From Myxococcales bacterium 68-20 (GTDB lineage Bacteria > Myxococcota_A > Polyangia > Polyangiales > Polyangiaceae): DNA of 64,000 nt. A program made the position numbers and the translations under genes. This document shows, piece after piece, positions 35,259-58,370 of this stretch. The stretch lies in contig MKVQ01000002.1 in assembly GCA_001899635.1 (NCBI GenBank), positions 250,198 through 314,197 of the forward strand. The letters are read 5' to 3'. The notes under the pieces were generated by a model, which was not told the DNA's origin, did no database searches, and saw nothing but the letters and a program-made list of their open reading frames with translations. The first letter of the stretch is position 1. Each line of letters opens with the position of its first letter.

Positions 35259-35264
35259 GCCGAC

Positions 35265-35403: not shown

Positions 35404-35796
35404 ATGGTGCTCGCCATGAAGCCCGTCAACTCACTCTCGGCTCCCGCAGCGATCGGCCCCTACTCGCAAGCGATCGACGCGGGCGACTTCGTCTTCCTCA
35501 GTGGCCAGGTCCCGATCGATCCGAAGACCGGCGAGCTCGTCCCGGGCGACATCGAGGCGCAGACCGAGCGCGTGCTCGACAACCTCGCCGCCGTCCTCGA
35601 GGCTGCGGGCTGCTCGTTCGCCGACGTCGTGAAGACGACGATCTACCTGATGGACCTCGGGGACTTCCAGGTCGTGAACGCGACGTACGCGAAGCGCTTC
35701 TCGTCTGCCCCGCCGGCGCGCGCGACCGTGCAGGTCTCCGCCCTCCCGAAGGGCTCGCGCGTCGAGATCGACGCGATCGCGAAGAAGCGCGCCTGA
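35404..35796 (+). CDS. RidA-family reactive intermediate deaminase
   Basis: A 130-residue protein of the Rid (YjgF/YER057c/UK114) family. Such proteins hydrolyse reactive enamine/imine intermediates made by PLP enzymes. [54 protein letters not shown] and the C-terminal [20 protein letters not shown] carry the family pattern, including the conserved Arg and Glu. The ATG at 35404 has GAAGG six bases ahead; the ATG at 35416 (MKPVNSLS) gives the more usual N-terminus and is nearly as likely. It is divergent from the merR-type gene and shows no operon partner. A strong hairpin follows its stop. Confidence 0.93.
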
Positions 35797-35955: not shown

Positions 35956-36780
35956 TCAGCGGAGCGTGATCGTGCCCGTGCTGCCCGCGAACTCCTTCGC
36001 CGTGAGCTTCAGCGAAGCGAGGCCGGTGCCCGCGGTGCCACGGCCGCCGGCTCCGGCGCCGTTCTTGATGTCGGTGAACGGTCCGACCTCGATCTTGTCC
36101 GCGTCGGCCTGGAGGATGACCTCGTCGGCAGCGAAGTCCGCGGGGAGCTTGGCAGAGATGTCGTCGCTCTCCGAGACCAGCGAGATCGTGGCGCCCTGGG
36201 TCGCCGGGAGATCGGCGTTGGTGAGGCCGCCGTTCGAGTTCGCTCCGAGGCTCCCGAGGGTCGCCGCCGAGAGCTGCAGCGTGAGTGTGCCGTTGCCCGA
36301 GAGCACCTTGAGGTCGAGCTTCTTGTCGGCCGAGCCCGCCGGGACGACGATCTCGACGTGCTCGCAGCCCGACTCGCCACCGTTCGAGCTGCCGTGCGAC
36401 CCGCCATGACCGCACGCGACGGTGATCCCGCTGCCCGAGTTCGAGAGCGTGAAGGTGGTCTTGGCTTCGGTGATGGAGGCGTCCGCGCTCTCCTTCTCCT
36501 CCGCAAGGGCCATCGCGAGCATCCTCGCCGTGGCCTTCACCTTCGTCGCGTTCGGATCGGCCGTCACGGAGACGCCGCCATTGAGCGAGATGCCGACGCC
36601 CTTGATGTCGATCTGGATCGGGCTGCCGTCCCAGTCTGCCGTGTCTTCCCGCACGACGTTGGTCTCGACGAAGCGGGTCTTGGGCTTGGCCGTAACCGAT
36701 GCCTGGACCTGGCAGCCCATGACGGAAGCGACGATACCGACGGCGACCGTTCCGAAGACGAGACTCGAGACGCGGCTCAT
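35956..36780 (-). CDS. Gly/Ser-rich putative lipoprotein
   Basis: A 274-residue exported protein. The ATG at 36780 has GGAGGGAG nine bases ahead. The signal peptide SRVSSLVFGTVAVGIVASVM ends in GC (lipobox VMGC). The mature part is dominated by beta-strand and Gly/Ser/Asn patterns (IQIDIKGVGISLNGGVSVTA; GHGGSHGSSNGGESGCEH; LDLKVLSGNGTLTLQLSAAT). Such runs resemble the DUF4097/DUF2807 type of beta-solenoid adhesin-like domains, but the match is by eye only. A His/Cys cluster near residue 125 (CGHGGSHG, then GCEH) might bind metal. It lies downstream of the DUF374 gene on the same strand, after a 187-base gap. Confidence 0.75.
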   Translation of the reverse strand: MSRVSSLVFGTVAVGIVASVMGCQVQASVTAKPKTRFVETNVVREDTADWDGSPIQIDIKGVGISLNGGVSVTADPNATKVKATARMLAMALAEEKESADASITEAKTTFTLSNSGSGITVACGHGGSHGSSNGGESGCEHVEIVVPAGSADKKLDLKVLSGNGTLTLQLSAATLGSLGANSNGGLTNADLPATQGATISLVSESDDISAKLPADFAADEVILQADADKIEVGPFTDIKNGAGAGGRGTAGTGLASLKLTAKEFAGSTGTITLR

Positions 36781-36967
36781 TCTGGATTCTCCCTCCCGCT
36801 CGCGGCGGGCAAAGCAAGGGCAGATACGAGGGGCCCCAGCTACTTGGACCGACCTCTGCCTGAATTCATTCAACGGCGGTCCCGCGATTCGGATCCCGGG
36901 GCGTTCTGAGGCCGTGGAAACTCAGGCAAAAGCCTCGACAAAGGTAACACGCGTCATCGCGGGCGCG

Positions 36968-37672
36968 TCAACTCAAGGCGCCCAGCACTGCAGGTGGTCG
37001 GGGTGCGAGCCCAAGCGCCGCCTCGGCGGCCGCATTGGCAGAGGCGATGGCCGTCGCCAGCTTGCCTACTCCAACCTCGTCCGATCCGAGGTCTGCCGGC
37101 TCGATCGGCGCCCCGAGCACCACGCTCACCCGCGCGAACGGCCATGCGAGGGCGAAGCGGTCCCACGCCCGCGCAAAGATCTTCCCCCCCACGATCGCGC
37201 TGCCCATCGGCACGATGACCGCGCCGGCCGCGCGAGCGGCCAGGAGGACGCCGGGCTTGGGCACCCCGTACGGTCCGCGCGGTCCGTCGACGGCAAACGC
37301 CGCGTCGTGCGTCCCGGTCCGGAGCCGCCGCACGAGCGTCGCGAGCCCGCGCGCTCCGCCGTTCGAGCTCGAGCCACGGACGACGGTAAACCCGAGCATC
37401 GAGAGCGCGGCGCTCTGGATCTGCCCGTCCTTCGACAGGCTCACCATCACGACAGTGGACCGCCGCCGTTGCCACGCGAGGAGCGGCCACTGCTTGCCGT
37501 GGAGGAACGCGAGGACCCAGGGGCGCCGCTCTTGGCACGTGTCGAGCGCGCTCGCCTCGAGCGCCGGGTCGATCACGAGCTCGAGGCGCAGTGTCATGAG
37601 CCACAGGCGCGCGACAATCCCGAGGCAGAACCCGAGGACGGCGCGCGCCATCACGCCCATGACGCGTTTCAC
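36968..37672 (-). CDS. DUF374-type lysophospholipid acyltransferase
   Basis: A 234-residue membrane-associated acyltransferase of the DUF374 group, related to lipid A acyltransferases. It has an N-terminal membrane segment (MARAVLGFCLGIVARLWLM), the His motif VLAFLHGKQWPLLAW, SLSKDGQIQSAALSMLGF, TVVRGSSSNGGARGL and the signature AVDGPRGPYGVPKPGVLLAA. The acceptor lipid is not known. The GTG at 37672 overlaps the stop of the giant TPR gene as GTGA, so translation is coupled to it. An ATG at 37660 (MGVMARAV) is an alternative. This coupling to an 11.5-kb gene, with PlsC and a lipid kinase beyond it, is the main hint to its role. Confidence 0.88.
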   Translation of the reverse strand: MKRVMGVMARAVLGFCLGIVARLWLMTLRLELVIDPALEASALDTCQERRPWVLAFLHGKQWPLLAWQRRRSTVVMVSLSKDGQIQSAALSMLGFTVVRGSSSNGGARGLATLVRRLRTGTHDAAFAVDGPRGPYGVPKPGVLLAARAAGAVIVPMGSAIVGGKIFARAWDRFALAWPFARVSVVLGAPIEPADLGSDEVGVGKLATAIASANAAAEAALGLAPRPPAVLGALS

Positions 37673-40600
37673 CCCTTCAGCTCGGCGAGCATCGTCTTCG
37701 CGCGTGCGAGGTTCGGATCGTTCTCGACGGCGCGCTCGAGCATCTGGACAGCCTTCGCCTTGTCGCCCTGCTTCATGCTGATCTCGCCGAGGTAGTAGAA
37801 GACCTCGCCCTTCGTGATGCCGCTCTGCGCGTCGAGGCGCTGGAGAAGCAACGCGCGGAACGTCTTCTGCGCGCGATCGAGATCGCCGATCTCGATCGCG
37901 AGGACACCGAGGTCGCGGAGCACCTCGATCGAGCCCGGGTCGATCTTGAACGCCATGTCGAGCTGCGTGAGCGCGACGTCCTTCTCTCCGAGCGTCGCGA
38001 GCGCGCGGCCGAGGCGGTGGTGATAGAGCGACAGCTCCTTCGTCCGCTTGCTTCCGAACGACGCGATGATCCGCTCGAGCACCGTCGCGGCATCACGCTC
38101 GCGCTGCGATGCCGTGTAGGCATCGCAGAGGAGAAGGAGCAGCTCCCGATCGCTCGGGACGAGCTCGGTCACTCGCTCGAGCACGGGGACCGCGTCCGCG
38201 GGCGCCTTTCGCTCGACGAGGTGGATCTCCGCGGCGCGGCGCAGGAGCTTCACCTGCTCGGCGACGTGCGGGGGCGGCGGCGGGATCATCGACCCGCCGG
38301 GAGGATTGGAGCTCCGACCGACCGGCGCGACCTCCGGAGGAGGCGCCACGATGCCGCCATACGCGGCCGCGATGATGTCGGCGTTCGAGGCCAGAAGCCC
38401 CGCGAGCTCCGCCCACTTCTTTGCCCGCTCGTAGAGCTGACCGAGGCGCTCGCGGACGTCGGTGCTCTCCGGGTCTGCTTCGAGCGCACGCTTGAGCGCG
38501 TCCTCCATGCCTTGCTCGTCACCGAGCTCCTTGCGAGCGCTCGCGAGGCGGAGCGCGATCTCGACGGCGCGCGCGCCGCTCGCGGTCTCGAGCAGGCTCG
38601 CGAGAGCGCGTTCGGCTTTGTCCCAGGCGCCACGTCCCTCCGCGAGGCGCGCGACGGCCTCGAGCGCCTCGGCGTGCCGTGCGTCTCGCTCGAGGACTTG
38701 CTCGTAGATCTCGAGCGCGCGACGGGCATCCTTCACCCGAAGCTCGAGGGTCTCGCCGAGCACCACCATGCGTGACAGCTCGAGCGCAGCCTCGCCGCGC
38801 GCGCGCGCGCGCTCGACGAGGCTCGTCTGGAGCTCCGAGAGCTCCGCGTACTGCTCCGCCTTCTCGAAGAGCGCGCCGAGCACCTTCGCCGCCTCCTCGT
38901 GATCGGGATCCTCATCGAGGATCGCGCGGAGCGTGTCGGTGGCATCGCGCACGTTCTCGAACTTCTCGAGCTGGAGCCGCGCGAGATCGACACGGAGGTG
39001 CGATCGTGCGTCGGCGGACTCCGCGAGCTCGATGAGCATCGCGAGCAGCCGAGCAAGCTCGTTGTACTTCCCGAGCTCACGGTAGAGCGCACGGAGGCGC
39101 TCCTGCGCGCGCACGTCTCCGCGCTCCTGCTCGAGGATCTCCTCGTAGAGCGCGACCGCGCGATCGCGATCGCCGAGCCGCTCGGATGCGACCTCGGCGG
39201 CGCGATGACGAAGCCGGAGGGCCTGATCGCCGTCGGACTCGGCCTCGGCGCGCTTCAAGAGCAGCGTGACGACCTCCTGGTAATCGCCTGCGTTCTCACG
39301 GAGGCGCGTCAGCTCGCCGTTGGCCCACGCGTCCGCGTCGTTCTCGGCGAGGAGCTCGCGAAGGACCTCCTCGGCGAGCTTCGCGTCGGCGAGGGTGACC
39401 TCGGCGAGCTCGGCGGCCTCGCGCGCAAGCTCACGCTTGCGGTCCGGCTCGCCTTCGAGCTTCACCAAGCGACGAAGCGTCGCCACGCGATCTCGCTCGC
39501 GCCCCGGTCCTCGACGGAGCGTCTCGAGCGCGCGGACGAGCTCGATGTTCTCCGGATCCGCATCGAGCGCCTTCGCGAACGCCCCCTCGGCGCTGGAAAG
39601 GTCACCGACCTTGTCGCGATGCCAACCTCCGAGGCGCGCCCAGAGCTCCGCGGCCCCGGTCGCCCCCGCAGCGGCGCGATCGTGCGCCTCGAGTGCGCGG
39701 CCGAGCGCATCGGCAGCCTCACGCCAGGCGTTGTTCTTCTCCGCTAGGCGCTCGAGCTCGGTCAGCGCGTCGGCGTCGGTCGGCTCGCCGACGAGCGCCG
39801 CCTCGACGGCGCGCTGCGCGCCCACCGGATCGTTCGCTTCGTTCTCGCGGACGCGCGCGAGCTCGAGCCGTGCACGCGTCTTGGCACGGGTGCCGTCCGC
39901 GCGATCGACCCGTCGCTCGTAGAGCCGAGCGAGGTCCTCGCCGCGGTTCGTCGAGCGATAGACACCCTCGAGCGTGTCGAACGCGTCGTCGAAGAGCGCG
40001 TCGTCGGCGAGCAGGCGCTCGATGGCCTCCCTCGCCTGCGCGTGCTCCGGAACGCGCTCGACCGCGAGGCGGAGCGTCGCGAGCCCCTGCGCCTTGTCGC
40101 CGATCGCGTCGATCTGGAGGCTCGCGAGGCGGTGGTACAGATCCGCCTGCGCGGCGCCGTCCTCCTCGATCGCGATGCGACGCTCGAGGACGTCGACGAG
40201 CGCACGCGTGTCGCCGAGCCCGCCTTGCACGCGCTCGAGAGCCACGAGCACCTCCGGTCCGTCGCCGCCCTGCTCGGCGGCGCGAGCGTAGGCCTCGGCT
40301 GCGCGCGGCAGATCCGAGAGCTCCCTCTCCGCGACCTTGCCGAGACGCATGAAGAGATCGGCAGTCACCCTCGCATCGAAGATCGACGCCGCGCGCTCGC
40401 CGAGGGTGTCGGCGTACAGCGACCAGCCGTCCTTGCCGATGAGCGCAGCGACGCGCTCGATGTCCGCGTGGAGCGCGCCGTCATCCGGCTGCTCGGCGAG
40501 AGCCCGCAGGAGCGCTCGCTCCGCCCGTCCGAGGTCGCGGAGCGAGTCTTCCGTGACCTTGGCGATGGCGCGGAGCGTGCCCGCGCGCTCGAAGGCCTCC

Positions 40601-43600
40601 GTCTGCGCACGGAGACGCATCTCGAGCGCGTCGGCGAGCTCCTCGTGCTTGCCGGCAGCGGCGAGCACGGGCTCGAGGACCTCCGCCGCCTCGCGGCGAA
40701 GCTCGTCGCGGCTCTCGCCGATCTGGCGCACCGCCCGCGCGGCCTCCTCGTCGTAGCCGAACGCGAGGACCTCGCGGAAGGCTTCGAGCGCCTTTTCGTG
40801 ATCGTCGAGCTCGGCGGCGAGCAAGCGTCCGATCCGCTTCGTCGTCTGCACCTTGGCGACGGGATCGGTCACGAGCTCGGCCTCGGCGCGGAGGTTGTCG
40901 AGCAGCTCGGGCCACATCTTCTCCGCCTCGTAGAGGTCGGAGAGGCGCTTCATCACCTCGGGGTCGTTCGGCTTGGTTGCGAGGGCCTGACCGAGCAGGA
41001 CGACGGCCTCCCGCCGGTCCTGGAGCCCGACCTCGTAACACTTGGCCGCGTCGAGCAGGAGCCGGTGCTTCAGATCGTCGTCGTACTCGGCGCAGAGCTC
41101 GACGCGACGGCGATAGAGGTCGACGAGCCGCGCAGCGTCGTTCCGCTCCTCGTAGAGCGGGATCAGATTGTCGAGCGTCCAGGCGTTCGAAGGCTCCAGC
41201 TCGAGGGCGCGCTCGTACGCGTCGATCGAGCCCTGCTGATCGTCGAGCATGTCGCGGCGAGCCTCGCCGATGCGACGCCAGAGGCTCGCGCGCTCTTCGT
41301 CGTCGTTCGTGAGGTCGGCCCGCTTCGCGAGCACGCGGACGAGCGTCGGCCAGTCCGAGAGCAGCGTGGCGAGCTGGTCCATCTCGTCGAGCGGACGCGA
41401 ATCCGACTCGTCGAGGGAGAACAGGCGCTCCCACGCGTCGAGCGCCTTGCGCGGATCGTCGCGGCGCTGGTCGTGGAGCTTCGCGAGCGCCTCGACCAGC
41501 TCACGCCGGCCGATGCCGTCGATCTTCTCGATCCCCTGCTCGTAGGCGTCGGCGAGATCGTCCCAGCGCGACGTCGCGACAGCGAGGCGATCGAGCTCCT
41601 CGCGCGTGTCTCCGTCGTCGGGGTCGATGGTGAAGGCCTCCTTCAAGCAGTCGAAGGCGCGCCCGAGATCGTTGCCCCGCTCCTCGAGGAGCTGCCCCAC
41701 GTCCCGGAGGACGGAGACCTTCTCGTTCGGGCTGCCGGCGATCGCGTAGCGATGCCGCGCGATCTCGACCAGCTTCTGCCAGTCGTCGGCCTGCTCGTAG
41801 ATCGGGCCGAGCAGCTCCACCACGCGCGGGCGGTGGTCCTCGCTCCCGAGCTTTGCCTCGAGCTCCTTCACCGCCGCCTGACCGAGCTCGCTCGCTTGCG
41901 GGGAGACGAGCCCGATCACCGCCTCGAGCTCGTCGATCGCGGAGACGGTGTCTTCGAGCTTGCCGTCGAGGACGTTCGCGAGCGACAGGCGCCACCTCGC
42001 CTCCTCCTCCGGAAGCGCGCTCTGCTCGGCACGGCGCCGGTAGAGGTCGGCGAGGTCACGCCACCTCTCACGCCGCTCGTAGAGACGGCCGAGCGCGTCG
42101 AGCGCCGTGGCATCCGTCTCGTCGACATCGAGGACGTTCCTGAACGTGACGATCGCCGCATCGTCGTCGCCGACCTCCCCCTCCTCGATCTTCGCGATCG
42201 TGTGGAGCGTCGCGACGCGGTCGACGGGGTCGGTCCGATACTCGAGCGCATCGCGGTAGAGCGCGACCCGCTCGGCCGGGCGCTTCGCCGCGGAGAGCAG
42301 GCGATCGATCGCCCGGAACGCCTGCTGCTCGTCCTCCGGCGCAAACTGGTACGCGCGGCGGTAGAACTGGAGGGCGCGGTTCGTGTGCTTCTGGCCATCG
42401 GCTCGCGCGCCGAGCGCCTCGAACAGCTCGCCGGTTCGGTATGCGAGACGCGCCGTGGCGGGCTCGTCGGCGTCGATCTTCTCGAGCTCCCCGGCGAAGA
42501 TCTCCGCGAGGCGCTCCTCCGCCGTCGCGACGCGCGCGAGGCGCTCGAGCTCTGCCCACGTTGCCTCGTCGGTCACGTCCTCGGCGAGGAGCTTCGCCAT
42601 GACGTCGAGCGCAGCGCGGTAGTTCTCCTCCTGCTCCTCGTGGAGTTTCGCGAGGCGCCGGAGCAGCTCGCGACGCTCGCCGGGGTCCTCGCTCCCTTCG
42701 AGGCGCGCCTCGACCGCGCCCATCACCTTCCGCCAATCGAGGCGCGTCAGGTAGACGCCCTCGAGCATCTCGGCGGCTCGGGCGGCCTGGGCCCGATCCC
42801 CGTTCGCTCGCTGCGCGACGATCTGCTCGAGGGACTGGACGGTCGCCTCGTGCGTCGGGTCGACACGAAGGGCCTCGCCCCACGCCTCGAACGCGCGCTC
42901 GGGCTCGGCGAGCTCCTTCTCGAAGACGCGGCCGAGCGCATGGTAGAGCGTCGCACGGCGATCGAGCGTCGTCTCGTCGACGCCGAGCTCGCGCTCGTGC
43001 AGCGCGACGAGGTCGCCCCATCGCGACGACGCGGTGTAGAGGCGCTCGAGCGCTGCTACGGCCGGCGCGTCGAGCCCGAGCTCGACGATCTGCTCGTAGA
43101 CTCCGATCGCGCGATCGCGGTCGCCGAGCGACACGTCGCAGATCTTCGCCTGCTTGTAGAGGATGCCCCGCTTCTCGGCGTCGCTGGTCGCGATCTCGGC
43201 GCGACGCTTCAGCACCTCGATCAGGTGCTCGTGCTCCCCAGCCTCCTCGTGGAGGGACTCGAGCGCCGTGAGCGCGCGCGTCTCCTCGGGACGGAGCTCG
43301 AGGGCGCGGCGGTAGCATTCCTTCGCCAGCGCGGCGTCCGAGAGCTTCGTTCGTGCGAGCTCCGCAACACGCAGCAGCACGGAGACCTGCTTGTCCTCGT
43401 CGAGGATCTCGGGCAGCGCCGCGCGGTAGAGCGCCACGAGCTCCGCCCAGCTGCGCTCCCCCGTCGAAGGTGAGATGCGCTCGGAGAGCCGCTCCGCACG
43501 AGCGATCCATTCGTCGACCGACGGCTCGGCCGCGGACTCGCGAAGGCCTCGCGACGTGTAGGCGAACGCCTTCGGCAGATCATTCAGCGGCCCCTCGGAG

Positions 43601-46600
43601 ACCGAGGCCGCGCGCGACAGGAGCTCGAGGCGTGGGTCGAGCTCGCTCTCGAGCTCGATCTGGATGTCGAGGACGCGAACGAGCTTGTCGTCCGTGCCGG
43701 CTGCCTCGTACAGCGGCCGCAGGATCTCGGCCACCTCGCCACGTGCCCCTTCCTCGGCGAGGAGCTCCTCGAGCGCCTCACGCGCAGGGACCGTACCCGG
43801 ATCGATCGTCAGCGCCTGGCGGTAGGCCTCGACCGCCTCGTCGATCTCGCCGAGACGCTTGCGACGGACGTCGCCCATCCGGGTGAGGAGATCGATGCGG
43901 TCCTCCGGCTCCGTCGCGAGCCCGAGATCGGCCTCGAGGGTCTCGGCGAGATCGCGCGCGCGCTCGGCCTTCTCGTAGAGGACCGCAAGCGCGCCGAGGA
44001 TCTTCCGATCCGCGCCGAAGTCGTCGAGCACCGCGCGGTACGCCAGGATCGCCTCGTCGACCTCGCCGATCGTCTCGAGCGCCTTCGCCGCACGGCCCAT
44101 GAGGACCTTCCGCGCCTCGGCGTCGTTCGCGTTCCGCTCGCGCGTCCGCAGGATCTCGACCAGGCTCCGCAGATCCCCGCCCCGCTCGTAGAGCCGATCG
44201 AGGGACGCGAGCGCGTCGTCGTCCGCGGGATCGTCTTCGAGCCGCTCCTTCCACGCAGCGATCGCCGCCGCATCGTCGGAAAGCGACTCCTCGGAGAGCC
44301 GTGCTAGCCGGCCGAGGAGCTGGCGGCGCGCGTCGGCCTGCTCCTCGAGCTTCACCTGCGCGCGAAGGATGCCGGCAAGCTCGCCGTACTTGCCTCCCGC
44401 GAGGTAGATCCGCTCGAGGGCGCGCGTGGCCGGGAGCGCGATCGACGGGTCCTCCGGTGCGAGCTCGAAGACCTGCCGGAACACGCCCTCGGATCGGTCC
44501 ACCCGCCCCGCCTCTTCGTGGATCCGTGCGACGTCGCCGAGGATCTCGGCGCGCGGCTGCGGAGCATCGGCGTTCTTCGCCGCCGCCGTCAGCACCTCGG
44601 CGGCCTCCTCTCGCTTACCGAGGCGCGTCGCGATCTCGAGGTAGCGCTGCCGCGCCTCGACATCGCCGGGCGAGAGCGGCAAGAGGCGCGCGTACGTCTC
44701 GAAGGAGCCGGCGTCGTCGATGAGGCGCTCGTCGCGCAGCTCGGCGACGCGGCGGAGCAGCTCGCGCCGCTCGACGTCATCGGCGACGAACTCGAGCCGG
44801 ATCTCGAGCACGCGCACGAGATCGCTGATCTCGTCGCGATCGGAGTACACGCCCTCGAGGATGATCGCCGCGCGCTGCCGCAGATCGGGATGCACGAGGC
44901 ACTTCTCGACGAGCTCGCGTGCCTCTCGGCTCGACGTGTCCCCGAGGACGACCTCTTCGAGGTGATCGAGCGCGTTCTTCGGGTCACCGAGCTTCACGAA
45001 GAGGAGCGTGCCGAGCCGGAGCTTGAGCTGAACGCTGGCGGTGCTCCCGGCGAGCTCGATGCGACGGCGCAGGAGATCGGCGAGGTTCTGCCACCGCTCG
45101 TGCGCGGCATAGAGCTTGTCGAGGGCGAAGATCGCCTGCTCGTGCCCGGGCTCGAGTTCGAGGATGCGCTCGTAATAGTGGATGGCCTTCGCCCCGTCGC
45201 TCGTGATCTCCTCGGCGATGATCGCGACCTCCGCGAGGAGATCGGTCCGGCGCTCCGCGCTCTCGGTCGCGGCGACCATGCGCTCGTAGAGCGCCTCGAG
45301 GTCCTTCCAGCGCTCGCGCGTCGTCAGGATCTGCTTCAGACGGAGGAACGCGCGATCGTTGCCCGGGTCGCGCGCGAGGATGCGCTCGAGGTAGGGCGTC
45401 GCGAGATCGATCTCGCCGAGGTTCTCGTCGTAGAGCGTGGCGGCGCGCTCGGCGAGGTCCATCTCGACGTGCACGGGCAGGCCGGTCTCGCCCGTCTCGG
45501 GCACGGCCTGCGTGATCGTCTCGACGAACTGCTGGGTGCGCCCCGTCTTGTTGGCGAGGACGGCGAGCCGATCCCACAGATCGAGCTCGCTCGGGTACTC
45601 GAGCGCTGCCTTCGCGAGGACCTCGAACGCCGCCAGCCGATCGCCGAGGTTCTGCTTCACCGCGGCGAGACGGAGGTGGAGCGCGAGCCGGTCCTGCTTG
45701 GACGGTGCAGTCGCGATCAGCACCCCGAGCACGTCCCCCTGCTTCTCGAACTGACCCGCGGCCGCATAGGCCGCCTCGAGCAGGATCGCAGCGTCCTTGC
45801 GTGTCTCGGCGAGGGGCATGAGCTCCTCGACGAGAGCGATCACCTGCGCGTGCTGCGGCGCGATCTCGAGCGCACGCGTCGCGGCGGCGAGGGCCTCGCG
45901 CGGGTTCTCGAGCGGCCCGAGGTAGAGGCGCGCGAGATCGAGCTCGCGCGCGACGCGGTTCGCCCCCTCCTCGAGGTCACGCTCGCGCGAGAGAATGCCG
46001 GCCGCGCCCTCTGCGTCACCGGCAGCGAGGAGCAGCCGCGACAGCGCGCGAAGCGAGCCGACGTGCTCCGGATCGATGCCGAGCAGCTCCTTGTGGATCT
46101 CGGTCGCCCGGGCGGGCTCAGCGAACGCCTCTTCTTCGAGGAGCGCCCACTCCGCGAGGAGCGGCACCGCCGCCCTTCCCTCCGCGCGGTTCACGCGCAG
46201 CCGGAACAGCCACCGGAGGTCGTCGTGCCGGTCCGGAGACGAGCGCAGGAGGCGGTCGAGCCCCGCGATCGCGGCCTCGTCCTCCGGGTTGGCCTCGATG
46301 AGGTCCTTGTAAGCGAGGACGGCATCGTCGGGCTTGCCCGCATGTTGCGCGGACACCTCGGCGAGCTTCATCCTCAGCTCGCGCTGTTCGTCCGCCCCCT
46401 CCGCCGACTCGAGCCGCGCCTGGATCGCCTGCGCGAGCCCCGCCCACTCGCCGGAGGCGCGAGCCCATGCTTCGAGCGACGCGAGCGTCCCCTCGGCGGT
46501 CGGCGCGAGCTCGTAGGCCTTCTTCGCGTAGCGGAACGCGGCCGGCCTGTCCGCGAGCCGATGGCCGACGACCTCCGCGAGCTTCTCGTAGAAACCGCGA

Positions 46601-49191: not shown

Positions 49192-49211
49192 CTTGATCCC
49201 GGGTGAAACGA

Positions 49212-49245
49212 TTCTCGAATGTAAGCCGTCCACATCATTCGAGAA
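49212..49245. promoter_or_regulatory. 10-bp perfect inverted repeat ahead of the giant TPR gene
   Basis: TTCTCGAATG (49212-49221) and CATTCGAGAA (49236-49245) are separated by 14 bases. The repeat starts 21 bases before the giant TPR ATG, in the 198-base region it shares with the PlsC gene. Its centre-to-centre spacing of 24 bases is a little over two helical turns, which suits a protein dimer. It could also fold in the leader RNA. Confidence 0.5.
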
Positions 49246-49389
49246 AGGCGAGGTGACAGACTGCGGCGCAGCGATGGTATTGAGCCTTTCCCGCGCAAGC
49301 AAGCACGCGGTTTGCGGCAGTTGCGGAGCACAGCGGCCGCGTCGTCACCGGCGATCTCCCTGCTTTCCCACGCCCTTTTCTGTGGGAGG

Positions 49390-50160
49390 ATGGCGACCCT
49401 CGTTTCCTCGGGCGTGACCGTGCCTCTCGGGAAATCCCTCCTCCTGTCACTCCGCAACGTCTTCGAGACGCTGTACGTCTCCGCGCCGACGGTCGTCGAT
49501 GCCTTCCGCGGCACGGTCTCGAGGAAGGTCTGCGACGAGCGGCTCGAGTCATGGGCGTCACGGGTCGTCGCCAACAGCGAGATGATGGTCTCCGTCCACG
49601 GACGCGAGAACATCCCGTCGGGGCTCACCGGGCACGGCTCGGGACCGGCGTTCCTGGTGATGAGCAACCACCAGTCGCACTACGACGTGGCGGTCCTCTA
49701 TTACGTCCTCGGCTCCAGCATCCGCATGATCGCAAAGCGCGAGCTCTTCGATCTCCCCGTGTTCGGCGGGGCGCTGAGGGCCGCGGGCTTCATCTCGATC
49801 GACCGCAAGAACACCGAGCGCGCGATCGCGAGTCTCGACGATGCGAAGCAGGAGCTCGCCGCCGGGGTCCCGATCTGGATCGCGCCCGAGGGAACGCGTA
49901 GCCCCACCGGCAAGCTCCTGCCGTTCAAGAAGGGTGGCTTCGTCCTCGCGCTCGCCACGGGCGCTCCCATCCTCCCGGTGAGCATCCGTGGGACGCGCGA
50001 CGTGCTCCGCGCCAAGGGCATGCTGTCGAAGCCGGGCGTCGAGGTCTTCGTGACAATCCATCCCCCGGTCGATCCGGCGCGATTCTCTCACCTGAGTCCC
50101 AAGGCTGCCCGAGATGCCCTGGCCGAAGAGGTGAGACGCGCAATCGCGAGCGGTCTTTGA
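49390..50160 (+). CDS. 1-acyl-glycerol-3-phosphate acyltransferase (PlsC family)
   Basis: A 256-residue membrane acyltransferase that adds a fatty acid to a lysolipid, most likely lysophosphatidate. The four family motifs are present: NHQSHYD (HX4D), the segment FISIDRKNTERAI, EGTRSPTGKLLPFKKGG and ILPVSIRGTRDV. The N-terminal 60 residues are partly hydrophobic. The start is uncertain: the ATG at 49390 is directly against GGGAGG, so a nearby downstream GTG may be used instead. Its stop overlaps the ATG of the lipid kinase by one base (TGATG), so the two are made together. It is divergent from the giant TPR gene. Confidence 0.92.
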   Translation: MATLVSSGVTVPLGKSLLLSLRNVFETLYVSAPTVVDAFRGTVSRKVCDERLESWASRVVANSEMMVSVHGRENIPSGLTGHGSGPAFLVMSNHQSHYDVAVLYYVLGSSIRMIAKRELFDLPVFGGALRAAGFISIDRKNTERAIASLDDAKQELAAGVPIWIAPEGTRSPTGKLLPFKKGGFVLALATGAPILPVSIRGTRDVLRAKGMLSKPGVEVFVTIHPPVDPARFSHLSPKAARDALAEEVRRAIASGL

Positions 50161-51179
50161 TGAATACTGTATCCGGCAAAGGGCTCTACATCCTCGTCAA
50201 CGCCAACGCGAAGCGCGGCGGCCGGCGCATCGCCGTCCAGATCGCGCGCGCACTCCCAGGCGCCACCGTCCGGCTCACGCGCAGCATCCAGGAGGTCGAG
50301 GGATGGCTGCGTACCGTGCTCGCCAACGGGACGTCGTCGATCCGCTGCATCCTCTCCGCAGGCGGTGACGGATCCGCGGTGACGCTGCTCAACGCGCTCG
50401 ATCGCGTGGTGCCGAAGGGCAAGCCCTTCCCTCCCATCGGCGCGCTCCCGCTCGGCACCGGCAACGCGTGGGCGCACGCGCTCGGTGCACGCAAGCTGGA
50501 CGCCTGCGTTCGTGCGCTGGCGAAGCACCATGGCCCGGTGCCCACGCGCAGGTATTCGCTGCTCGAGTGTGACGGCGTGCTCACCTTCTTCGGCGGCTGC
50601 GGATGGGACGCGCAGGTCCTCGACGACTACCGCCAGCAGGTCGAGCAGTCGCCCTCGAGCCGCATCGCCAAGAGCGTCTGGGGCTACGTCACGGCGATGC
50701 TCACCCGAACCGTGCCGAAGACGCTGCTCCACGGGCGCCCCCGCGTGATCATCGAGAACCTCGGCGACGAGGTCTACGTGATCGACGAGGGATACCGCCT
50801 CAAGCGGCTCGAGGGCGCGCGCCGCGGGACGATCCTCTACGACGGCATGGCGAGCGTCGCCGGCGCCGCGACGTGTCCCGAGTTCGGCTACGGCTTCAAG
50901 GCATACCCGTTCGCGGAGCGCCTCCTCGACCTGCTCAACGTGCGCCTCTACGATCAGAAGGCGCTCTCCGCCGTTTACGACATCCCGAAGCTCTGGCGAG
51001 GCCAGCATCCGCTCGAGGGCATGCAAGACTGGTTCGCGACGGAGATCAGGATGACGTTCTCGCGCCCGGTACCGCTCCAGATCGGCGGCGAGGCGGTCGG
51101 CTCCCGCCTGACCGTGGAGTTCAAGAAGTCCGATCGCTCCGTCGACGCGCTCGACTGGCGCATGCTCGGCCTCGCCTGA
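50160..51179 (+). CDS. diacylglycerol-kinase-type lipid kinase
   Basis: A 339-residue lipid kinase of the DAGK catalytic family. The nucleotide-binding fold has GLYILVNANAKRGGRRIAVQ, the GGDG motif in ILSAGGDGSAVTLLNAL and the PLGTGNAWAHALG loop. The C-terminal beta-rich part (MASVAGAATCPEFGYGFKAY; LQIGGEAVGSRLTVEFKK) is the lipid-binding lobe. It could phosphorylate diacylglycerol, giving phosphatidate, or another neutral lipid such as ceramide. Coupling to PlsC makes a glycerolipid recycling step plausible. The second large TPR gene starts 194 bases downstream on the same strand. Confidence 0.92.
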   Translation: MNTVSGKGLYILVNANAKRGGRRIAVQIARALPGATVRLTRSIQEVEGWLRTVLANGTSSIRCILSAGGDGSAVTLLNALDRVVPKGKPFPPIGALPLGTGNAWAHALGARKLDACVRALAKHHGPVPTRRYSLLECDGVLTFFGGCGWDAQVLDDYRQQVEQSPSSRIAKSVWGYVTAMLTRTVPKTLLHGRPRVIIENLGDEVYVIDEGYRLKRLEGARRGTILYDGMASVAGAATCPEFGYGFKAYPFAERLLDLLNVRLYDQKALSAVYDIPKLWRGQHPLEGMQDWFATEIRMTFSRPVPLQIGGEAVGSRLTVEFKKSDRSVDALDWRMLGLA

Positions 51180-51373
51180 CGGCGCGCGCTTCTGCGGAGG
51201 TGCGCACGGGCGTGGTGTCAAGCGATCCGAGCACGCGCGGATGACCGGTATGGGCCGGAGCTTTCGCGAGCCGAACGATCCGGTATCCTGAACGAGCGGG
51301 ACCAAGCGGCCCGTGAGCGAGCTCACGCGACCGCGCGCGTCCTCGCGCCCACCCGAAGGAGCTGGAGAGCCAG

Positions 51374-54300
51374 ATGCCTCAAGGCGGAGACAACCGTTCG
51401 ACGAGCCCCGAATCCGAGCTCGACGCCAGCGCGCTCGAGTCGGTGCCTCCGATGCCGGCCGCCCCAGCGTACACGCCGCCGCCTGCGCCGCCGCCGCCCC
51501 CGTCTTCGGCGCGCTCCCTCGGCCCCACGCCGAGCGTCGTCCCGCGCGCGACCCCATCGCGTCCGCGGCCAGGGGCTCCGCCGCCTCCCGTGCCGCCATC
51601 GCAGCCGACCGCACGGCCGACGGCTCCTCGCGCAGCCGCGTCCGCCGTCCCGAACGCCGGGCTTCGCCTTCCGACCCAACCGCCGGGACCGCCGCGCGCG
51701 CCCGCGGCTCCTCCGTCGATCGCGCCGCAGGCCGCGGTGAAGCCCCAGCCGTCCGGCCCTCCCCCGCCCTCTCCATGGCGCGGCCCCGTCGAGCGGATCG
51801 CGCGCGAGGTCACGGCGCGCCTCCACCAGCACCCGGTGCGCGCGGCGATGCTGCTCGCGGCGCAGGCGCGCATCTGCGCCGACGCGATGGGCGATCCGCT
51901 CGCGGCCACGACCGCGCTCACGCGCGCGTCCGAGCTCGCCCCCGAGGCGCGCTTCCTCGCGAGCACCTGGCGATGGCTCTCAGAGCAGGGCGCCGACCGC
52001 CTCGACGTGCTCCATCGCACGCGCGCCGAGCTCGCGCATGTCGGCGAGGGGCGCGAGCGCGCGAGCCTGCTCTGGCAGGCAGCGGCGATCGAGGAACACG
52101 TCGCCGGCGACATCGCTGCAGCGATGCGAACGCTAGGCGAGCTGCTCGTGCTCCAACCGAACGACGTCGGCGCGCTCGACGCGCTCGCAGCTCTCCATCT
52201 CCGCGCACGCTCCGGAGACGAGAGCGCCGGATGGTCGGCTGGCGCCGATGGGCTCCCGGGCGACGACAAGGCAGTCTTCGGCGGCGTCATCGAAGCCCTC
52301 GACCTCGTTGCACAGGTCACGGACGACGCGATCACGCGCAGCGCGCTTCACGGCGCGGCCGGCGCGCTCCGCGATCGCTACCTCGCCGACACCGACGGCG
52401 CGCTCGCCTCGCTCCGCCGCGCGCTCGAAGCCGATCCGACGAACGCCGGCGCACAAGCGACGCTCGAGGCGCTTCTCCTCCGCCGGCGCGCCTGGGACGA
52501 ATACGCCCGCGTCATCGCCGCCCAGGCAGACCGTACCGCGGAGGCAGTGACGGCGCGCGAGCTCTTCGAGCGCGCCGGCGACGTGTTCGCCGAGTGCGTC
52601 GGCGATCACGCGCGCGCGGCACATTGTTACGTGCGGGCCGCGACGCTGACCGAAACGGACCCTGCGCCCGTCGAGAAGCTCGCAACCGTGCTCGAGGCCG
52701 CCGGCCGATGGGAGGACGCAGCAGCGGCCTACGAGCGGCTCCTCGCGCGCCTGCGCGAGCCTGCGCAGAAGGCGTGGGCGCTCCTCCGCCTCGGCAGCCT
52801 CCAGGAGACGCGGCTGAAGCGCGCCGACGACGCGCTCGCCGCGTACCGGCTCGCGGTCGATGCATCGCCGACGTTCGCGCCGGCAGTGCAGGCGCTCCTC
52901 CGTACGAGCCGCGAGCGCGGGCTCCCGCTCGCGATCGAGCTCGAGCGACGCGAGGCGGACCGCATCGTCGATCCGCAGGTCCGCGCGGTGCGCTATGCGG
53001 CGCTCGCCGAGTACGTCGAGGCGACGAGCGCGCCCGATCTCCCGGAGGAGGCGGCGGTGCTCTACGAGCGCACGCTCGCGCTCGATCCGACGAACGCCGC
53101 CGCCTTCGATGCGCTCGACCGCATGTACCGTGCGGCGTCGCAGTGGCCTCGGCTCGTCGCGCTCTACGAGAACGCGCTCACGAAGACCACGCATCCGCGG
53201 CGCGCACGGTCGCTCCGCCTGCAGCTCGCCGAGATCCTGGAAGCGCGCGTCCGGGAGCCGGCCCGCGCGGCCGATCTGCGGCGCGAGGCGCTCGCCGGCC
53301 CCGAGGATCGCTACGACGTCCTCGTCTCGCTCGCCCGCTCGCTCGCCGACGCGGGGCGCTGGAGCGAATACGTCGACGTGCTCGAGGCGCAGGCGAGCAT
53401 GCTGAGCGGCGCGGACGAGATCGCCGCCGTCTACCGCATCGGCGCGGCGCTCGAGACGCGCGTGAAGGATCTCCGCCGAGCGCTCGCGACCTACGAGATC
53501 GTGATCGATCGCGCCCCGGGCCACGAGGCGGCCGCGCGCGCGATCGCCCGGATCCACGAGAAGGAAGGCCGCTGGGAGCGCGTCATCGACGCGGAACGCC
53601 GCCTGCTCGATCTCGCAACGCGGCCCGAGGACGTCATCGAGGGGCTCGTTCGTATCGCGCGTGTCTTCGAGGAGCACCTCGGCCGCGTCGAAGACGCGAT
53701 CGCCTCCTACCTCGAGGCGCTGCATCGCGCCCCTGCATACGTGCCCATCGTCGCCGCCCTCGAGCGTCTCCTCCGCGGTACCGGCGATTTCCGTCGGCTC
53801 GCTCAGGTGCTCCAGCGCCACGCGGACGCTGCGGGCGACCCACACGTGAAGGCCCGCGCTCGCATGCGCGCGGCCACCATCCTGGAGCTGTGCCTCGACG
53901 ACACGGATACCGCGACAGCGGCCCACGCACGAGCAGCCGAGGCGCTCGGGAGCGTTGCTGCGGGCGGGCTCGGCGAGGCAGACCACCAGGCAGCGCTCTG
54001 GGGTCTCCTCCGCCTCCACGAGACGCGCGGGGAGTGGGACCGTGTCGACGGCACGCTTGCGGCGATCCTCGAGACCACGACCGAGCCCTCGTCGCAGAGG
54101 CGCGTCCTCGTGCGCCTCGCGCGTAACGCCGAGCTCCGCCTCGACGACGTCCCTCGCGCGGCGCGTCTCTACGAGGAGGCGCTCGCGAGCGGCTCGAAGC
54201 CCGCTGCGATGGCCGTCGATCGGCTGCGCCTTGCCCGCCTCGAAGGCAAGCCTGATGCGATCGCGAGCTGCCTGTCGGCGATGGCCGCGAACACCACCGA

Positions 54301-56857
54301 CGTGCGCCTCGAGAGCGCCCTTCTCCGCGTGCTCGCCCTCGCGGTGGAGCACGGAGGGGCGACGCCGCCCGCAGTGTTCGTGGGATCGGGACACTCCGGT
54401 CCCGGCGCGGGAACGACGGGCTACGCGGCCTCGATTTACGAGCGCCTCGTCGAGCGAGATCCGGAGGATCCGCAAGCCCTCGACGGACTCGTTCGATGCA
54501 TCGGGGCGGGACCGAACGACTCGGTCTCGGATCCGCGCTTGCCCTCGACGCTCGTCGCCCGCGCACGCGCCACCAACGATCTCTCCCTGCGCGCGCTGCT
54601 CGCCTTCTCGGCCGGCGTGCTCGACGAGAGCGCCGGGCGTACGTCCGCCGCCGAGGTGGCCTACACCCTCGCGCTCTCGGCCGATCCGGAGCTCACACCG
54701 GCGCTCGACGCATCGCGCCGCCTCCGCGCCCTCGCGAGCGACTGGAGCGCGGTGGCGGCGCTGGCGGAGCGCTCGGCCCGAGCGTCGCTCGATCGCGAGA
54801 ACGTGGCGGCAGCATGGGTGGAGGCAGCCGAGGTCCACGAGAGCCGCACGGGCGATCCCGCGCGTGCCCTCGCGAGCTACCGAGCCCTGCTCGCCACTCA
54901 GCCGGCGCACGCGCACGCGCTCGAGCGCGCGCTCGTCCTCTTCGAGGCATCCTCCGACTTCGCCGGCGCCGCGAGCGTGCTCCTCGCACATGCGGACGCG
55001 CTCGGACACGATGCAGTCGCGCAGGCGCGGGCGCTCACGCGCCGCGCGACGATCCTCGCGAGCCGCCTCGGCGACACGGCCGGCGCGATCGTCGATCTCC
55101 GGCGCGCCATGGCCCTCACCCACGACGCCAGCGCCATTCCGAGCGAAGACGAGGTCAAGACCATCCAGGCGCTCGCCATCCTCGAGGAGCGCGTGAAGAA
55201 CTGGCCGGAGGCGCTCCAGCTCTACGAGCGCATCGCACAGATGAAGTCGAGCGCCTCGGACCGCTCCGGCCCGTCGACGACGACGCGACGGCGCGCACGC
55301 CTCGCGCAGGCCCGCATCTACGGCGACGAGCTCCGCGACGACGTGAAGGGCAAGGAGATCCTCGAGGAGCTCGTCGCCTCGCGCCCGGAAGATCGCGACG
55401 CGTCGTTCCGGCTCGCGGAGATCTCGGCACGCAGCGGACACGAGGCCCGCGCGCTCGAGCTCTACGAGGCGCTCTCGACCGGCGGCTCCGCCGTCGAGCG
55501 CGTCCGCGCGCTCGTCGCGCTCGCCGATCTCCAGCGCAGCCGTCCCGACGCGGCATCGAAGGCCGAAGGCGAGGCCGCGCTCGCGCGTGCGTTCGACCTC
55601 GCGATCGCCGACCCGACGATGCTGACGCCTCTCGAGGACCGCGTCGTGCGCGACGGCGACCACCGCTCGTTCGTCGCCCACGCCGAGGCCGCGGTCAGCC
55701 GAATCCGGCCGAACACGCCCGGCGTCCTTCCGATGCGTAAGGCGGTGGCGCGCATCCTTCGCGACGAGCTCGGCAACCCCGAGGCCGCGGATCGGCAGCT
55801 CGCCGCCGCGATCCAGGCGTTCCCGGAGTCGATGGAGACGCGCCTGTCGCTCGCGACCGGCCTCATCGGCCGTAACGACGAGGCCGCGCTCGCCGAGCTC
55901 CGGCGCGCGGTCAACGCCGACCCGATCGCGCCCGGCCCCTTCGAGGCCCTCGTCACCATCGCCCGGAAGACCGGGAGGAGCGCGATCGCCACGATGCTCG
56001 CGTCCGCGGCCGCCCTCCTCGGAGGGACGTCGTCGGAGGTCGAGACCGTGCTCGCCACGGCGACGCCGATCCGTCCGGTGGCGGAGGCCTTCCTCTACGA
56101 CGAGGCCATGTCCAGGCTCGTAGGTCCGAGCCGCGCGCGCTTCCTGCGAAGCGTCCTCGCATTGCTCGAGCCGTACCTCGCGAAGATCTTCCCCGGCGGC
56201 GAGGCGATGCTCGAGACGCGCGCGCGCCTGCCCGAGAGCTATCCGATCGCGACGGAGATCCGTGCCCTCGCGATGACGCTCGGAGTCTACGCCCCCGCCG
56301 TGCATCGCGGCGTCGGGCGCGAGGTCGCGCTCCTCCTCACGGAGCCGCGCGCGCTGGTGCTGGGCAACGATCTGCTCACCGACGCGGGGCGCCCGCTCGC
56401 CGCGTTCCATGGCGCCTACGCATGCGCGAGGATGGCTTCGAACGGGAGCATCTACGTGGCGCCCCGCCAGCAAGCCGCGGCGATGCTCGACGCGGCGACC
56501 CTCCCCGACGCGGACGGCCCGGCGATCCGCGACTTCCGAAAGCGCGTCGGCTCCGCGCTCCCGCGCAAGACGAAGAAGGAACTGGAGCGCATCGTCGCCG
56601 AGGGCGCCGCCGACCTCCACGCCGAGCTTGCGGTCTGGGAGGCAGAGGAGTCGCGGCGTGCGCTCTACTCGGCGGTCGTCCTCTGTCGCGACATGCGTGC
56701 GGTCGCCCAGGTGATCGCGTCGGACGCGCTCGCGCTTCCGCGCGTGGACGACCGGCGCCGGGCGCTCTCCGCAAACGCGCGGCTACGCGAGGTGCTCGAG
56801 TTCATCGCGTCCTCCGCGTGCTGGGACGTCTTCCACCGGATCTACGGGCACCCCTGA
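51374..56857 (+). CDS. large TPR-repeat protein, 1,827 residues
   Basis: A cytosolic repeat protein. The first 140 residues are a disordered Pro/Ala/Ser linker (PPPAPPPPPSSARSLGPTP) that starts at an ATG with GAAGGAGCTGGAG ahead. From there to about residue 1,400 TPR-like units run in the same style as the 3,840-residue protein (RWEDAAAAYERLLARLREPA; AVLYERTLALDPTNAAAFDA). The last 350-400 residues are different: AFLYDEAMSRLVGPSRARFL, REVALLLTEPRALVLGNDLL, RSVLALLEPYLAKIFPGGEA and LEFIASSACWDVFHRIYGHP. They form a compact domain I recall only from unannotated myxobacterial TPR proteins. No enzyme motif is seen. The long opposite-strand frames inside it are shadows. It follows PlsC and the lipid kinase and mirrors the other giant gene. 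Confidence 0.88.
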   Translation: MPQGGDNRSTSPESELDASALESVPPMPAAPAYTPPPAPPPPPSSARSLGPTPSVVPRATPSRPRPGAPPPPVPPSQPTARPTAPRAAASAVPNAGLRLPTQPPGPPRAPAAPPSIAPQAAVKPQPSGPPPPSPWRGPVERIAREVTARLHQHPVRAAMLLAAQARICADAMGDPLAATTALTRASELAPEARFLASTWRWLSEQGADRLDVLHRTRAELAHVGEGRERASLLWQAAAIEEHVAGDIAAAMRTLGELLVLQPNDVGALDALAALHLRARSGDESAGWSAGADGLPGDDKAVFGGVIEALDLVAQVTDDAITRSALHGAAGALRDRYLADTDGALASLRRALEADPTNAGAQATLEALLLRRRAWDEYARVIAAQADRTAEAVTARELFERAGDVFAECVGDHARAAHCYVRAATLTETDPAPVEKLATVLEAAGRWEDAAAAYERLLARLREPAQKAWALLRLGSLQETRLKRADDALAAYRLAVDASPTFAPAVQALLRTSRERGLPLAIELERREADRIVDPQVRAVRYAALAEYVEATSAPDLPEEAAVLYERTLALDPTNAAAFDALDRMYRAASQWPRLVALYENALTKTTHPRRARSLRLQLAEILEARVREPARAADLRREALAGPEDRYDVLVSLARSLADAGRWSEYVDVLEAQASMLSGADEIAAVYRIGAALETRVKDLRRALATYEIVIDRAPGHEAAARAIARIHEKEGRWERVIDAERRLLDLATRPEDVIEGLVRIARVFEEHLGRVEDAIASYLEALHRAPAYVPIVAALERLLRGTGDFRRLAQVLQRHADAAGDPHVKARARMRAATILELCLDDTDTATAAHARAAEALGSVAAGGLGEADHQAALWGLLRLHETRGEWDRVDGTLAAILETTTEPSSQRRVLVRLARNAELRLDDVPRAARLYEEALASGSKPAAMAVDRLRLARLEGKPDAIASCLSAMAANTTDVRLESALLRVLALAVEHGGATPPAVFVGSGHSGPGAGTTGYAASIYERLVERDPEDPQALDGLVRCIGAGPNDSVSDPRLPSTLVARARATNDLSLRALLAFSAGVLDESAGRTSAAEVAYTLALSADPELTPALDASRRLRALASDWSAVAALAERSARASLDRENVAAAWVEAAEVHESRTGDPARALASYRALLATQPAHAHALERALVLFEASSDFAGAASVLLAHADALGHDAVAQARALTRRATILASRLGDTAGAIVDLRRAMALTHDASAIPSEDEVKTIQALAILEERVKNWPEALQLYERIAQMKSSASDRSGPSTTTRRRARLAQARIYGDELRDDVKGKEILEELVASRPEDRDASFRLAEISARSGHEARALELYEALSTGGSAVERVRALVALADLQRSRPDAASKAEGEAALARAFDLAIADPTMLTPLEDRVVRDGDHRSFVAHAEAAVSRIRPNTPGVLPMRKAVARILRDELGNPEAADRQLAAAIQAFPESMETRLSLATGLIGRNDEAALAELRRAVNADPIAPGPFEALVTIARKTGRSAIATMLASAAALLGGTSSEVETVLATATPIRPVAEAFLYDEAMSRLVGPSRARFLRSVLALLEPYLAKIFPGGEAMLETRARLPESYPIATEIRALAMTLGVYAPAVHRGVGREVALLLTEPRALVLGNDLLTDAGRPLAAFHGAYACARMASNGSIYVAPRQQAAAMLDAATLPDADGPAIRDFRKRVGSALPRKTKKELERIVAEGAADLHAELAVWEAEESRRALYSAVVLCRDMRAVAQVIASDALALPRVDDRRRALSANARLREVLEFIASSACWDVFHRIYGHP

Positions 56858-56900: not shown

Positions 56901-58370
56901 TCAGGTCCGAGCGTGGCGAGGAAAGAGGCCTGCGACAGTGGCGAGCAAGCGAGCAAGCTTCAGTGGCTTCGGGAGTACGACCGCTCCGGACGGTGCCCCC
57001 GCGGGATTCGAGGTCGAAACTACGACGGGGATCTTCGATAGCACCGGGTCCGCTTGCATGGTCTCGTAGACTCGCCAGCCGTCGACCGCCGGCATCACGA
57101 GGTCGAGCACCACGAGATCTGGGCGTTGCGCTCCGTCGTGAAGGATCTCGAGCGCCTCTCTTCCGTCGGCCGCGGTGACCGCGTCGTAGCCTTGCTCTTC
57201 GAATGCCTCCCGAAGGGAATCACGAATGTTCTCGTCGTCGTCGACGACGAGAATCTTCGCCGCCCGCTCGACGTCCTTCGCGACCGCGTGGTTCATCCTT
57301 CGCGGAAGGCGAACGGCGAAGGACGTGCCCCCTGCGTCGCTCGCGACGTCGATGTGCCCCCCGTGCGCGACGGCGACCTGCTGAGAGATGTAGAGGCCGA
57401 GACCGAGACCGCGTGACCTGGGCGAGGTCCTGCGTCGATCTCGAAAGGGATCGAAGAGCGTCGGAAGCGCATCGGCCGGGATCGTGCCGCGGTTCTTCAC
57501 CTGAACGATGACTTCGTCGTGGTCCCCGCGAACGGTGACCACGACGGGCGAGCCTGCCGTGCCGTGCTCGAGCGCGTTCGCGACGAGGTTCGATAGGAGC
57601 TGGAGCAAGCGGTCTGCGTCGCCGACTGTGGAGCAGTCGCCGACGGTCTCGACGACGACCTGACGCTCTGGATGCGATTGCTGGAGCTCCTCTGCCGTGC
57701 GTTCGACCAGCGCCCGAACGTCCAGGGGCTTGCGCGTCCGCAAGAACCCGAGACCGCCCGCGAGGCGCGCGCGCGTCAAATCCAACAGCTGCTCGATCAT
57801 CTCCGTCATTCGATTGCCCGCAGCGGTCATCCTCTGGAGCGTGCGGAGCTGCGCGTCCCCGGATACCTGGCGCTCGAGGAGCTGGGCGCCAGCGAGGACG
57901 GCGCTGAGGGGATTGCGCAGGTCGTGGCCGAGGATCCCGACGAAGATCTCGTTGAGGCGAAGGGCGCTCGCGAGCTCGTTTCGCTGGCGGTGAAGCTCGA
58001 AGAACACGTCGGCCTTCCCCCGGAGCACGTGCGGGTCGAGCGGCTTGAACAAGAAGTCGACCGCTCCGGTCTCGTAGCCTCGAAACACGCACTGGGGATC
58101 GCGCGACCCGGCGGTGACGAAGATGATCGGGACGTGCTTCGTCCGTTCCGCTCCGCGCATCAGCTCGGCGAGCTCGAACCCGTCCATCTCGGGCATCTGG
58201 ACGTCGACGAGAGCGAGGGCGACCTCGTGGGCGAGGAGCAACTCGAGCGCCTCGGCCCCCGAGCGGGCCTTGAGGATCGTGAGCCCGTCGCGACGAAGGA
58301 GAGCCTCGAGTGCGACGAGGTTATCCTCGGTATCGTCGACGATCAGAAAGTGGATCGGTTCGGCCATCAT
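56901..58370 (-). CDS. receiver-histidine kinase-receiver hybrid protein
   Basis: A 489-residue soluble signalling protein. Residues 1-125 are a receiver (FLIVDDTEDNLVALEALLRR; ALVDVQMPEMDGFELAELM, with the phospho-Asp; FLFKPLD). Residues 140-360 are a histidine kinase: phospho-His in VGILGHDLRNPLSAVLAGAQ, N box LLSNLVANALEHG and G box GLGLGLYISQQVAVAHGG. Residues 370-489 are a second receiver (ILVVDDDENIRDSLREAFEE; DLVVLDLVMPAVDGWRV; VLPKPLKL). Its kinase core closely resembles that of the PAS kinase at the other end of the cluster. The first ATG of an ATGATG pair overlaps the upstream stop (ATGA). It is the last gene of the signalling operon and ends 43 bases from the large TPR gene. Confidence 0.93.
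   Translation of the reverse strand: MMAEPIHFLIVDDTEDNLVALEALLRRDGLTILKARSGAEALELLLAHEVALALVDVQMPEMDGFELAELMRGAERTKHVPIIFVTAGSRDPQCVFRGYETGAVDFLFKPLDPHVLRGKADVFFELHRQRNELASALRLNEIFVGILGHDLRNPLSAVLAGAQLLERQVSGDAQLRTLQRMTAAGNRMTEMIEQLLDLTRARLAGGLGFLRTRKPLDVRALVERTAEELQQSHPERQVVVETVGDCSTVGDADRLLQLLSNLVANALEHGTAGSPVVVTVRGDHDEVIVQVKNRGTIPADALPTLFDPFRDRRRTSPRSRGLGLGLYISQQVAVAHGGHIDVASDAGGTSFAVRLPRRMNHAVAKDVERAAKILVVDDDENIRDSLREAFEEQGYDAVTAADGREALEILHDGAQRPDLVVLDLVMPAVDGWRVYETMQADPVLSKIPVVVSTSNPAGAPSGAVVLPKPLKLARLLATVAGLFPRHART

Follow-up and report, generated by a model that had tools for sequence, protein, structure and literature searches.

The gene neighbourhood described here lies in a window of 64,000 nucleotides (contig MKVQ01000002.1, positions 250,198 to 314,197 of the forward strand, assembly GCA_001899635.1) from Myxococcales bacterium 68-20, whose genome measures 11.9 Mb. 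It places the gene of a giant tetratricopeptide repeat (TPR) protein of 3,840 residues, giant 1, beside the genes of three lipid enzymes and of a second large TPR protein, TPR2. An earlier note on this DNA had proposed a single system in which the two solenoids are tied to the lipid enzymes. We find that the giant is kept in relatives lacking a key lipid gene, therefore the neighbourhood looks like several separate pieces, and we consider it probable that, in place of a single system, the locus combines an old backbone with additions particular to certain lineages. The backbone would be giant 1, probably a cytosolic TPR scaffold holding one or more client proteins, with an aminotransferase as its commonest neighbour. 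The DUF374 enzyme encoded behind the giant, probably expressed together with it, would add a secondary acyl chain to lipid A; PlsC and a DAGK-type kinase, to judge from their families, would supply or recycle phosphatidate; and TPR2 would be a recent arrival from a paralogue family.

Searching 78 related genomes, its own included, with the last 641 residues of giant 1 (E up to 1e-30) yields matches in 70, those of G004 and G053 being paralogue-like at 34-35% only. lpxC, the only marker of the lipid A pathway used, is found in 41 of the 78. The giant is kept in 28 genomes without detected lpxC, a count obtained from the 30 lpxC-less genomes matched at the E-value limit by subtracting G004 and G053. 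Within the window's own family, G013, G015, G017, G029 and G042 have neither lpxC nor DUF374 and retain the giant; by lineage, this holds for relatives of Sorangium and for three others in the family. Of all neighbours of the giant, a class IV pyridoxal phosphate (PLP) aminotransferase is the most widespread, present at 55 of 77 named loci. These derive from the best 80 of 119, three with too little flank being left uncounted; 30 of the 77 carry giant-aminotransferase, 25 giant-DUF374-aminotransferase, 12 giant-DUF374-other and 10 neither gene. As the named loci overlap in species with the 78-genome set, these counts are not independent of the coupling count given below (36 of 36). Given that the giant is kept in lineages without lpxC and DUF374, and that its most widespread neighbour is an aminotransferase, giant 1 is not generally a lipid A device, and the proposed tie between giants and lipid enzymes does not survive the comparison.

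At four loci of Sorangium cellulosum (L154, L156, L158 and L159) the aminotransferase match begins 15 bases after the stop of the giant, and no DUF374 is found beside the giant in the flanks searched, which measure 2.2 kb for L156 and 10 kb for the other three. The S. cellulosum enzyme is 81-89% identical to that of G029, which marks G029 as a close relative of Sorangium. S. cellulosum So ce56 reportedly is without lipopolysaccharide (Keck 2011, cited in PMC11324152). The gene next to the giant at positions 10639-11601 of L158, like its equivalents, encodes the class IV PLP aminotransferase; the four proteins tested fall below every NCBIfam cut-off listed. In the window's genus, no aminotransferase is called behind the giant in nine of nine regions.

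Gene layout and the giant TPR protein

The lengths, positions and overlaps previously read for five genes of the locus hold, and Pfam agrees on all five. The features are:

35956..36873, minus strand: hypothetical protein of 305 residues with a lipoprotein-like start, behind the DUF374 gene
36968..37672, minus strand: DUF374 acyltransferase (Pfam DUF374), candidate LpxJ-like lipid A late acyltransferase, overlapping the stop of giant 1 through GTGA
37669..49191, minus strand: giant TPR protein 1, 3,840 residues, ATG at 49191 and stop at 37669, TPR by Pfam
49192..49389, no strand: divergent intergenic region, 198 bases between the ATGs; promoters presumed, none recognised
49390..50160, plus strand: PlsC-type 1-acylglycerol-3-phosphate acyltransferase (Pfam Acyltransferase; TIGR00530 above cut-off; HX4D and EGTR motifs)
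50160..51179, plus strand: DAGK_cat lipid kinase (Pfam DAGK_cat; GGDG and GTGN motifs), overlapping plsC by one base
51374..56857, plus strand: TPR2, 1,827 residues (Pfam TPR), after a gap of 194 bases behind the kinase gene

The gap between the divergent genes does measure 198 bases, as had been noted; the control role ascribed to it is not confirmed, scans of the 198-base and 194-base gaps, which covered sigma-70-like promoters and terminators only, being empty. The 305-residue hypothetical protein occupies the same place behind DUF374 in several congeners, and other lineages have the class IV aminotransferase there. On the other side of it, dnaX, ybaB, recR and ridA (31502-35796) are near giant 1, as they are in a fair share of the relatives. 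Among the gene clusters near the giant, dnaX is represented in 16 of 42 regions, recR in 15, and ybaB and ridA in 12 each. That these genes stay near indicates a stretch that rearranges slowly, and because such housekeeping neighbours also remain close, conserved adjacency here is weak evidence for joint function.

Giant 1 is of similar length across the order and is probably a cytosolic alpha-solenoid. The giants of 41 relatives and of the window align over their full length, with an occupancy near 1 over most of it, and residue 1 of giant 1 is the alignment start in several relatives. As called, 41 of the 42 measure 3,667-4,161 residues and the remaining one (G002) 3,227, lengths that include N-terminal over-extension by the gene caller and the effect of contig edges. 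The TPR period is 72 residues in both giant 1 and TPR2. Neither protein has a transmembrane-like stretch, as judged by hydropathy with no dedicated signal-peptide predictor run; the peak 19-residue value in giant 1 is 1.36, at residue 3597. The earlier suggestion that the giants organise lipid synthesis at the inner membrane, transfer lipids or sense them receives no direct support. The last 140 or so residues are the best conserved, with a top-residue fraction of 0.64-0.70 compared with 0.43-0.64 elsewhere, and the C-terminal TPRs are predicted to be the likeliest docking site. Compared with the PDB, the profile of this region is that of a generic TPR, designed TPRs and OGT being the best hits among the best 60 of 104. 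Most likely, giant 1 is a cytosolic scaffold with one or more protein clients. A repeat count by iterated hidden Markov model was discarded, as its units overlapped. The same genome encodes further large TPR proteins: one has 4,058 codons, another 3,812, and several fall in the range of 1.7-2.0 thousand.

The DUF374 enzyme behind the giant

The occurrence of DUF374 tracks that of lpxC and not that of the giant. The two genes are both present in 39 of the 78 genomes and both absent from 34, and only five genomes are discordant: G012 and G067 have lpxC without DUF374, and G066 and G075 (both weak, partial matches) and G077 have DUF374 without lpxC. On the tree of the 42 giants lpxC undergoes at least five changes, and DUF374 changes in the same way in all five independent pairs. 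Setting two weak matches aside leaves 40 genomes whose DUF374 match is strong or edge-cut: in those of the window's family, own genome included, the gene always follows the giant immediately (36 of 36), and in the four of another family it never does. The giant-DUF374 coupling described earlier is therefore both real and conserved. DUF374 is present in 25 fetched regions, those of 24 relatives and the window's own, and a start of the gene could be read in all but five; in 19 of the 20 readable regions the end of the giant has a candidate start close by, from 4 bases ahead of it to 8 bases past it, and in G038 the start lies at 120 bases. A start so near the end of the giant fits joint translation, and, going by this spacing, the giant and DUF374 are probably made together. 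As an observation in its own right, the failure to find lpxC in 37 of the 78 genomes, with several independent changes on the tree of the giant, points to repeated loss of lipid A in this order.

The DUF374 family was renamed LpxJ following work on proteins of Helicobacter, Campylobacter and Rickettsia, and LpxJ is described as a lipid A late acyltransferase (PMC6148475), the chain it adds being the 3' secondary one; the resemblance to lipid A acyltransferases first noticed in this sequence is thereby upheld. The domain in the window scores 76.4 bits against a curated Pfam cut-off of 26.8. Like LpxJ, the protein is without the HX4D/E motif, having H58-G-K-Q-W-P in its place, and it carries five of the six critical residues: by motif and spacing, with the R. 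typhi sequence itself outside the alignment, H58, D82, D129, W170 and D171 correspond to H61, D86, D132, W172 and D173 of the R. typhi enzyme. Each of the five is invariant, with similar spacing, in all 37 aligned DUF374 sequences. The structure model (pLDDT, a predicted local accuracy score, 92.1) has the lysophospholipid acyltransferase (LPLAT) fold, matching PatA with Z 13.0 (root-mean-square deviation 3.9, 175 residues aligned), PlsC with Z 12.2, and LpxM with Z 11.4 (deviation 3.5, 169 residues aligned). When the DUF374 profile was run against PDB sequences, no match appeared at E up to 1. The gene is single-copy, 42 of the 78 genomes having one match each, and the protein of the window is the sole DUF374 enzyme found in its genome. 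Taken together, family, residues, fold and co-occurrence with lpxC suggest that it probably acts as the enzyme adding the secondary acyl chain. It differs from LpxJ in being encoded by a gene coupled to that of a giant TPR protein.

The divergent lipid genes and TPR2

In the genus and in nearby genera, plsC and the kinase gene are kept divergent from the giant. PlsC matches TIGR00530 with 105.5 bits (cut-off 102.95), its HX4D motif starting at H94, and is one of 14 PF01553 matches in this genome. The kinase scores 42.4 against 23.6 bits for DAGK_cat in Pfam, and stays under every NCBIfam cut-off listed for YegS and other named lipid kinases, the best being 38.5 against 274 bits. Family models and catalytic motifs thus make the two proteins resemble PlsC (TIGR00530) and the YegS-LCB5-type lipid kinases; what sets them apart is the position of their genes, divergent from that of a giant TPR protein. 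Of 41 fetched relatives, 13 have a DAGK gene upstream of the giant and divergent from it, and in 10 of the 41 PlsC lies between the two; in G010 a further two called open reading frames separate PlsC from the giant. Twenty genomes, the window's own not counted, have a DAGK at least 55% identical: in 13 it shares a contig with the giant, and these are the same 13 that have it upstream and divergent; six carry the two genes on separate contigs; and G012 has no giant that could be found.

The inclusion of TPR2 in a conserved set is contradicted by its distribution. Its C-terminal 428 residues have strong matches in three of 11 congeners (G003, G005 and G006) and one weak match, in G017, among the 48 genomes searched, own included. 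Adjacency of TPR2 and DAGK is seen in G005 only, that is in one of 41 regions; in G006 the DAGK gene is at a contig end and TPR2 lies on a separate contig, and G003 likewise has the genes on separate contigs. Aligned to a profile of six further large TPR proteins from the same genome, the C-terminal region gives 96.5% probability over 338 columns; it has no Pfam match other than TPR. Another family of large TPR paralogues in this genome is the probable source of TPR2, which would have arrived recently. The model of its C-terminal region has a pLDDT of 62, and the region may bear some resemblance to degenerate M48 peptidases. Four large TPR proteins of the genome (G000:C43:33394-45567, C22:146232-151730, C15:192-11833 and C26:42783-47810) flank what we take to be bioenergetic or Fe-S operons, the neighbours presumably being cytochrome oxidase with a quinol complex, NADH dehydrogenase, ATP synthase and isc, to judge from the look of their translations. 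Behind TPR2, on the opposite strand, lie three histidine kinase or hybrid response-regulator genes (56901-63927).

Competing explanations and meaning

A number of observations weigh against reading the locus as separate pieces with a lipid A enzyme among them. Of the 41 genomes that have lpxC, 40 carry the giant, as against 28 of the 37 that have no lpxC (p = 0.005 if kinship is ignored). Among the eight genomes in which the giant is missing, lpxC is missing too from seven, and five are small, at 3.1-4.1 Mb. The giant-DUF374 coupling is tighter than that of other neighbours and could reflect a real functional link in the family, and persistence of the giant without lpxC may be compatible with a lipid A role acquired in one family. 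As for the link of DUF374 to lipid A, the Fisher p of 3e-16 for its co-occurrence with lpxC ignores kinship, the five concordant pairs give p = 0.0625, the lowest value that five pairs allow, and G067 has lpxC with no DUF374 match and G077 the reverse. Finally, Leu-57 of the window's protein stands where LpxJ of R. typhi has W60, the sixth critical residue, for which reason we call the protein LpxJ-like and not LpxJ; among the 37 sequences this position is W in 21, F in 11, L in three, Q in one and R in one.

LapB of E. coli is a TPR protein that stands, like giant 1, in a lipid A context, and by analogy the giant might have been recruited in one family as a lipid A checkpoint or scaffold acting through the LpxJ-like enzyme, with another client elsewhere. 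We regard this as unlikely. The proximity of the DUF374 start to the end of the giant and the unbroken coupling would fit such recruitment, and a precedent exists in the control of LpxC turnover by LapB (PMC7730581). Against it, the five genomes of the same family named above keep the giant without DUF374 and lpxC; the LapB models of NCBIfam reach only 63.6 and 54.4 bits with giant 1, compared with cut-offs of 363 and 474; and giant 1, in contrast to LapB, is without a transmembrane-like stretch and occurs where lpxC does not.

Orthology of giant 1 to AgmK/GltI (MXAN_4863), the giant TPR protein of the gliding machine of Myxococcus xanthus, appears quite improbable to us. Both are very long myxobacterial proteins of similar size and repeat type without signal-like or transmembrane stretches, and gltI is one of seven genes reported only from Myxococcales, Sorangium included, and Bdellovibrionales (PMC3169522). 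Weak matches to the GltJ model, below cut-off, occur in 111 of 141 genomes, the best of the window's own genome having an E of 9.8e-13. No match exceeds the NCBIfam cut-off for GltJ in the 141 genomes of the phylum sample or in eight named genomes, a search in which no positive control fired. Giant 1, however, is not beside a gltJ-like gene, its neighbours being DUF374, the 305-residue hypothetical protein, PlsC and DAGK; AgmK homologues are reported from M. xanthus and Stigmatella only, among the genomes compared in PMC3447774; and another giant of the same genome, that of 4,058 codons, is closer to the length of GltI (4,132).

That two TPR giants and three lipid enzymes form one system, the solenoids organising lipid synthesis or transfer or sensing envelope lipids, is very improbable: the 36 of 36 coupling, the upstream divergent DAGK in all 13 genomes where a close orthologue shares the contig of the giant and the higher frequency of the giant in genomes with lpxC speak for it, but the giant persists in 28 genomes without detected lpxC, its most widespread neighbour is an aminotransferase and not a lipid gene, TPR2 has an orthologue in three of 11 congeners and its adjacency in one of 41 regions, and recR, ybaB, dnaX and ridA also stay near in what is a slowly rearranging stretch. 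Among the titles and abstract openings surveyed, none connects giant myxobacterial TPR proteins with lipids.

A bolder extension of the reading as backbone and additions, which we hold to be a long shot, would make giant 1 an order-wide cytosolic assembly platform. One family would have captured on it the last step of lipid A acylation, and the genus would have added phosphatidate synthesis and diacylglycerol recycling, so that the balance between lipid A and phospholipid would be set on a single TPR scaffold, in effect a LapB-like checkpoint that evolved along a different path; lineages that lost lipid A would have kept the platform for an older, aminotransferase-linked task. Regardless, the comparison tells a common place on the chromosome apart from a common function, and the repeated absence of lpxC and DUF374 in relatives serves as a knockout made by nature, by which the lipid idea is put to the test. 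For the family, one protein emerges as the candidate late acyltransferase of lipid A, and for the order, a widespread giant TPR protein of similar length throughout comes into view, whose task is testable in cultured genera.

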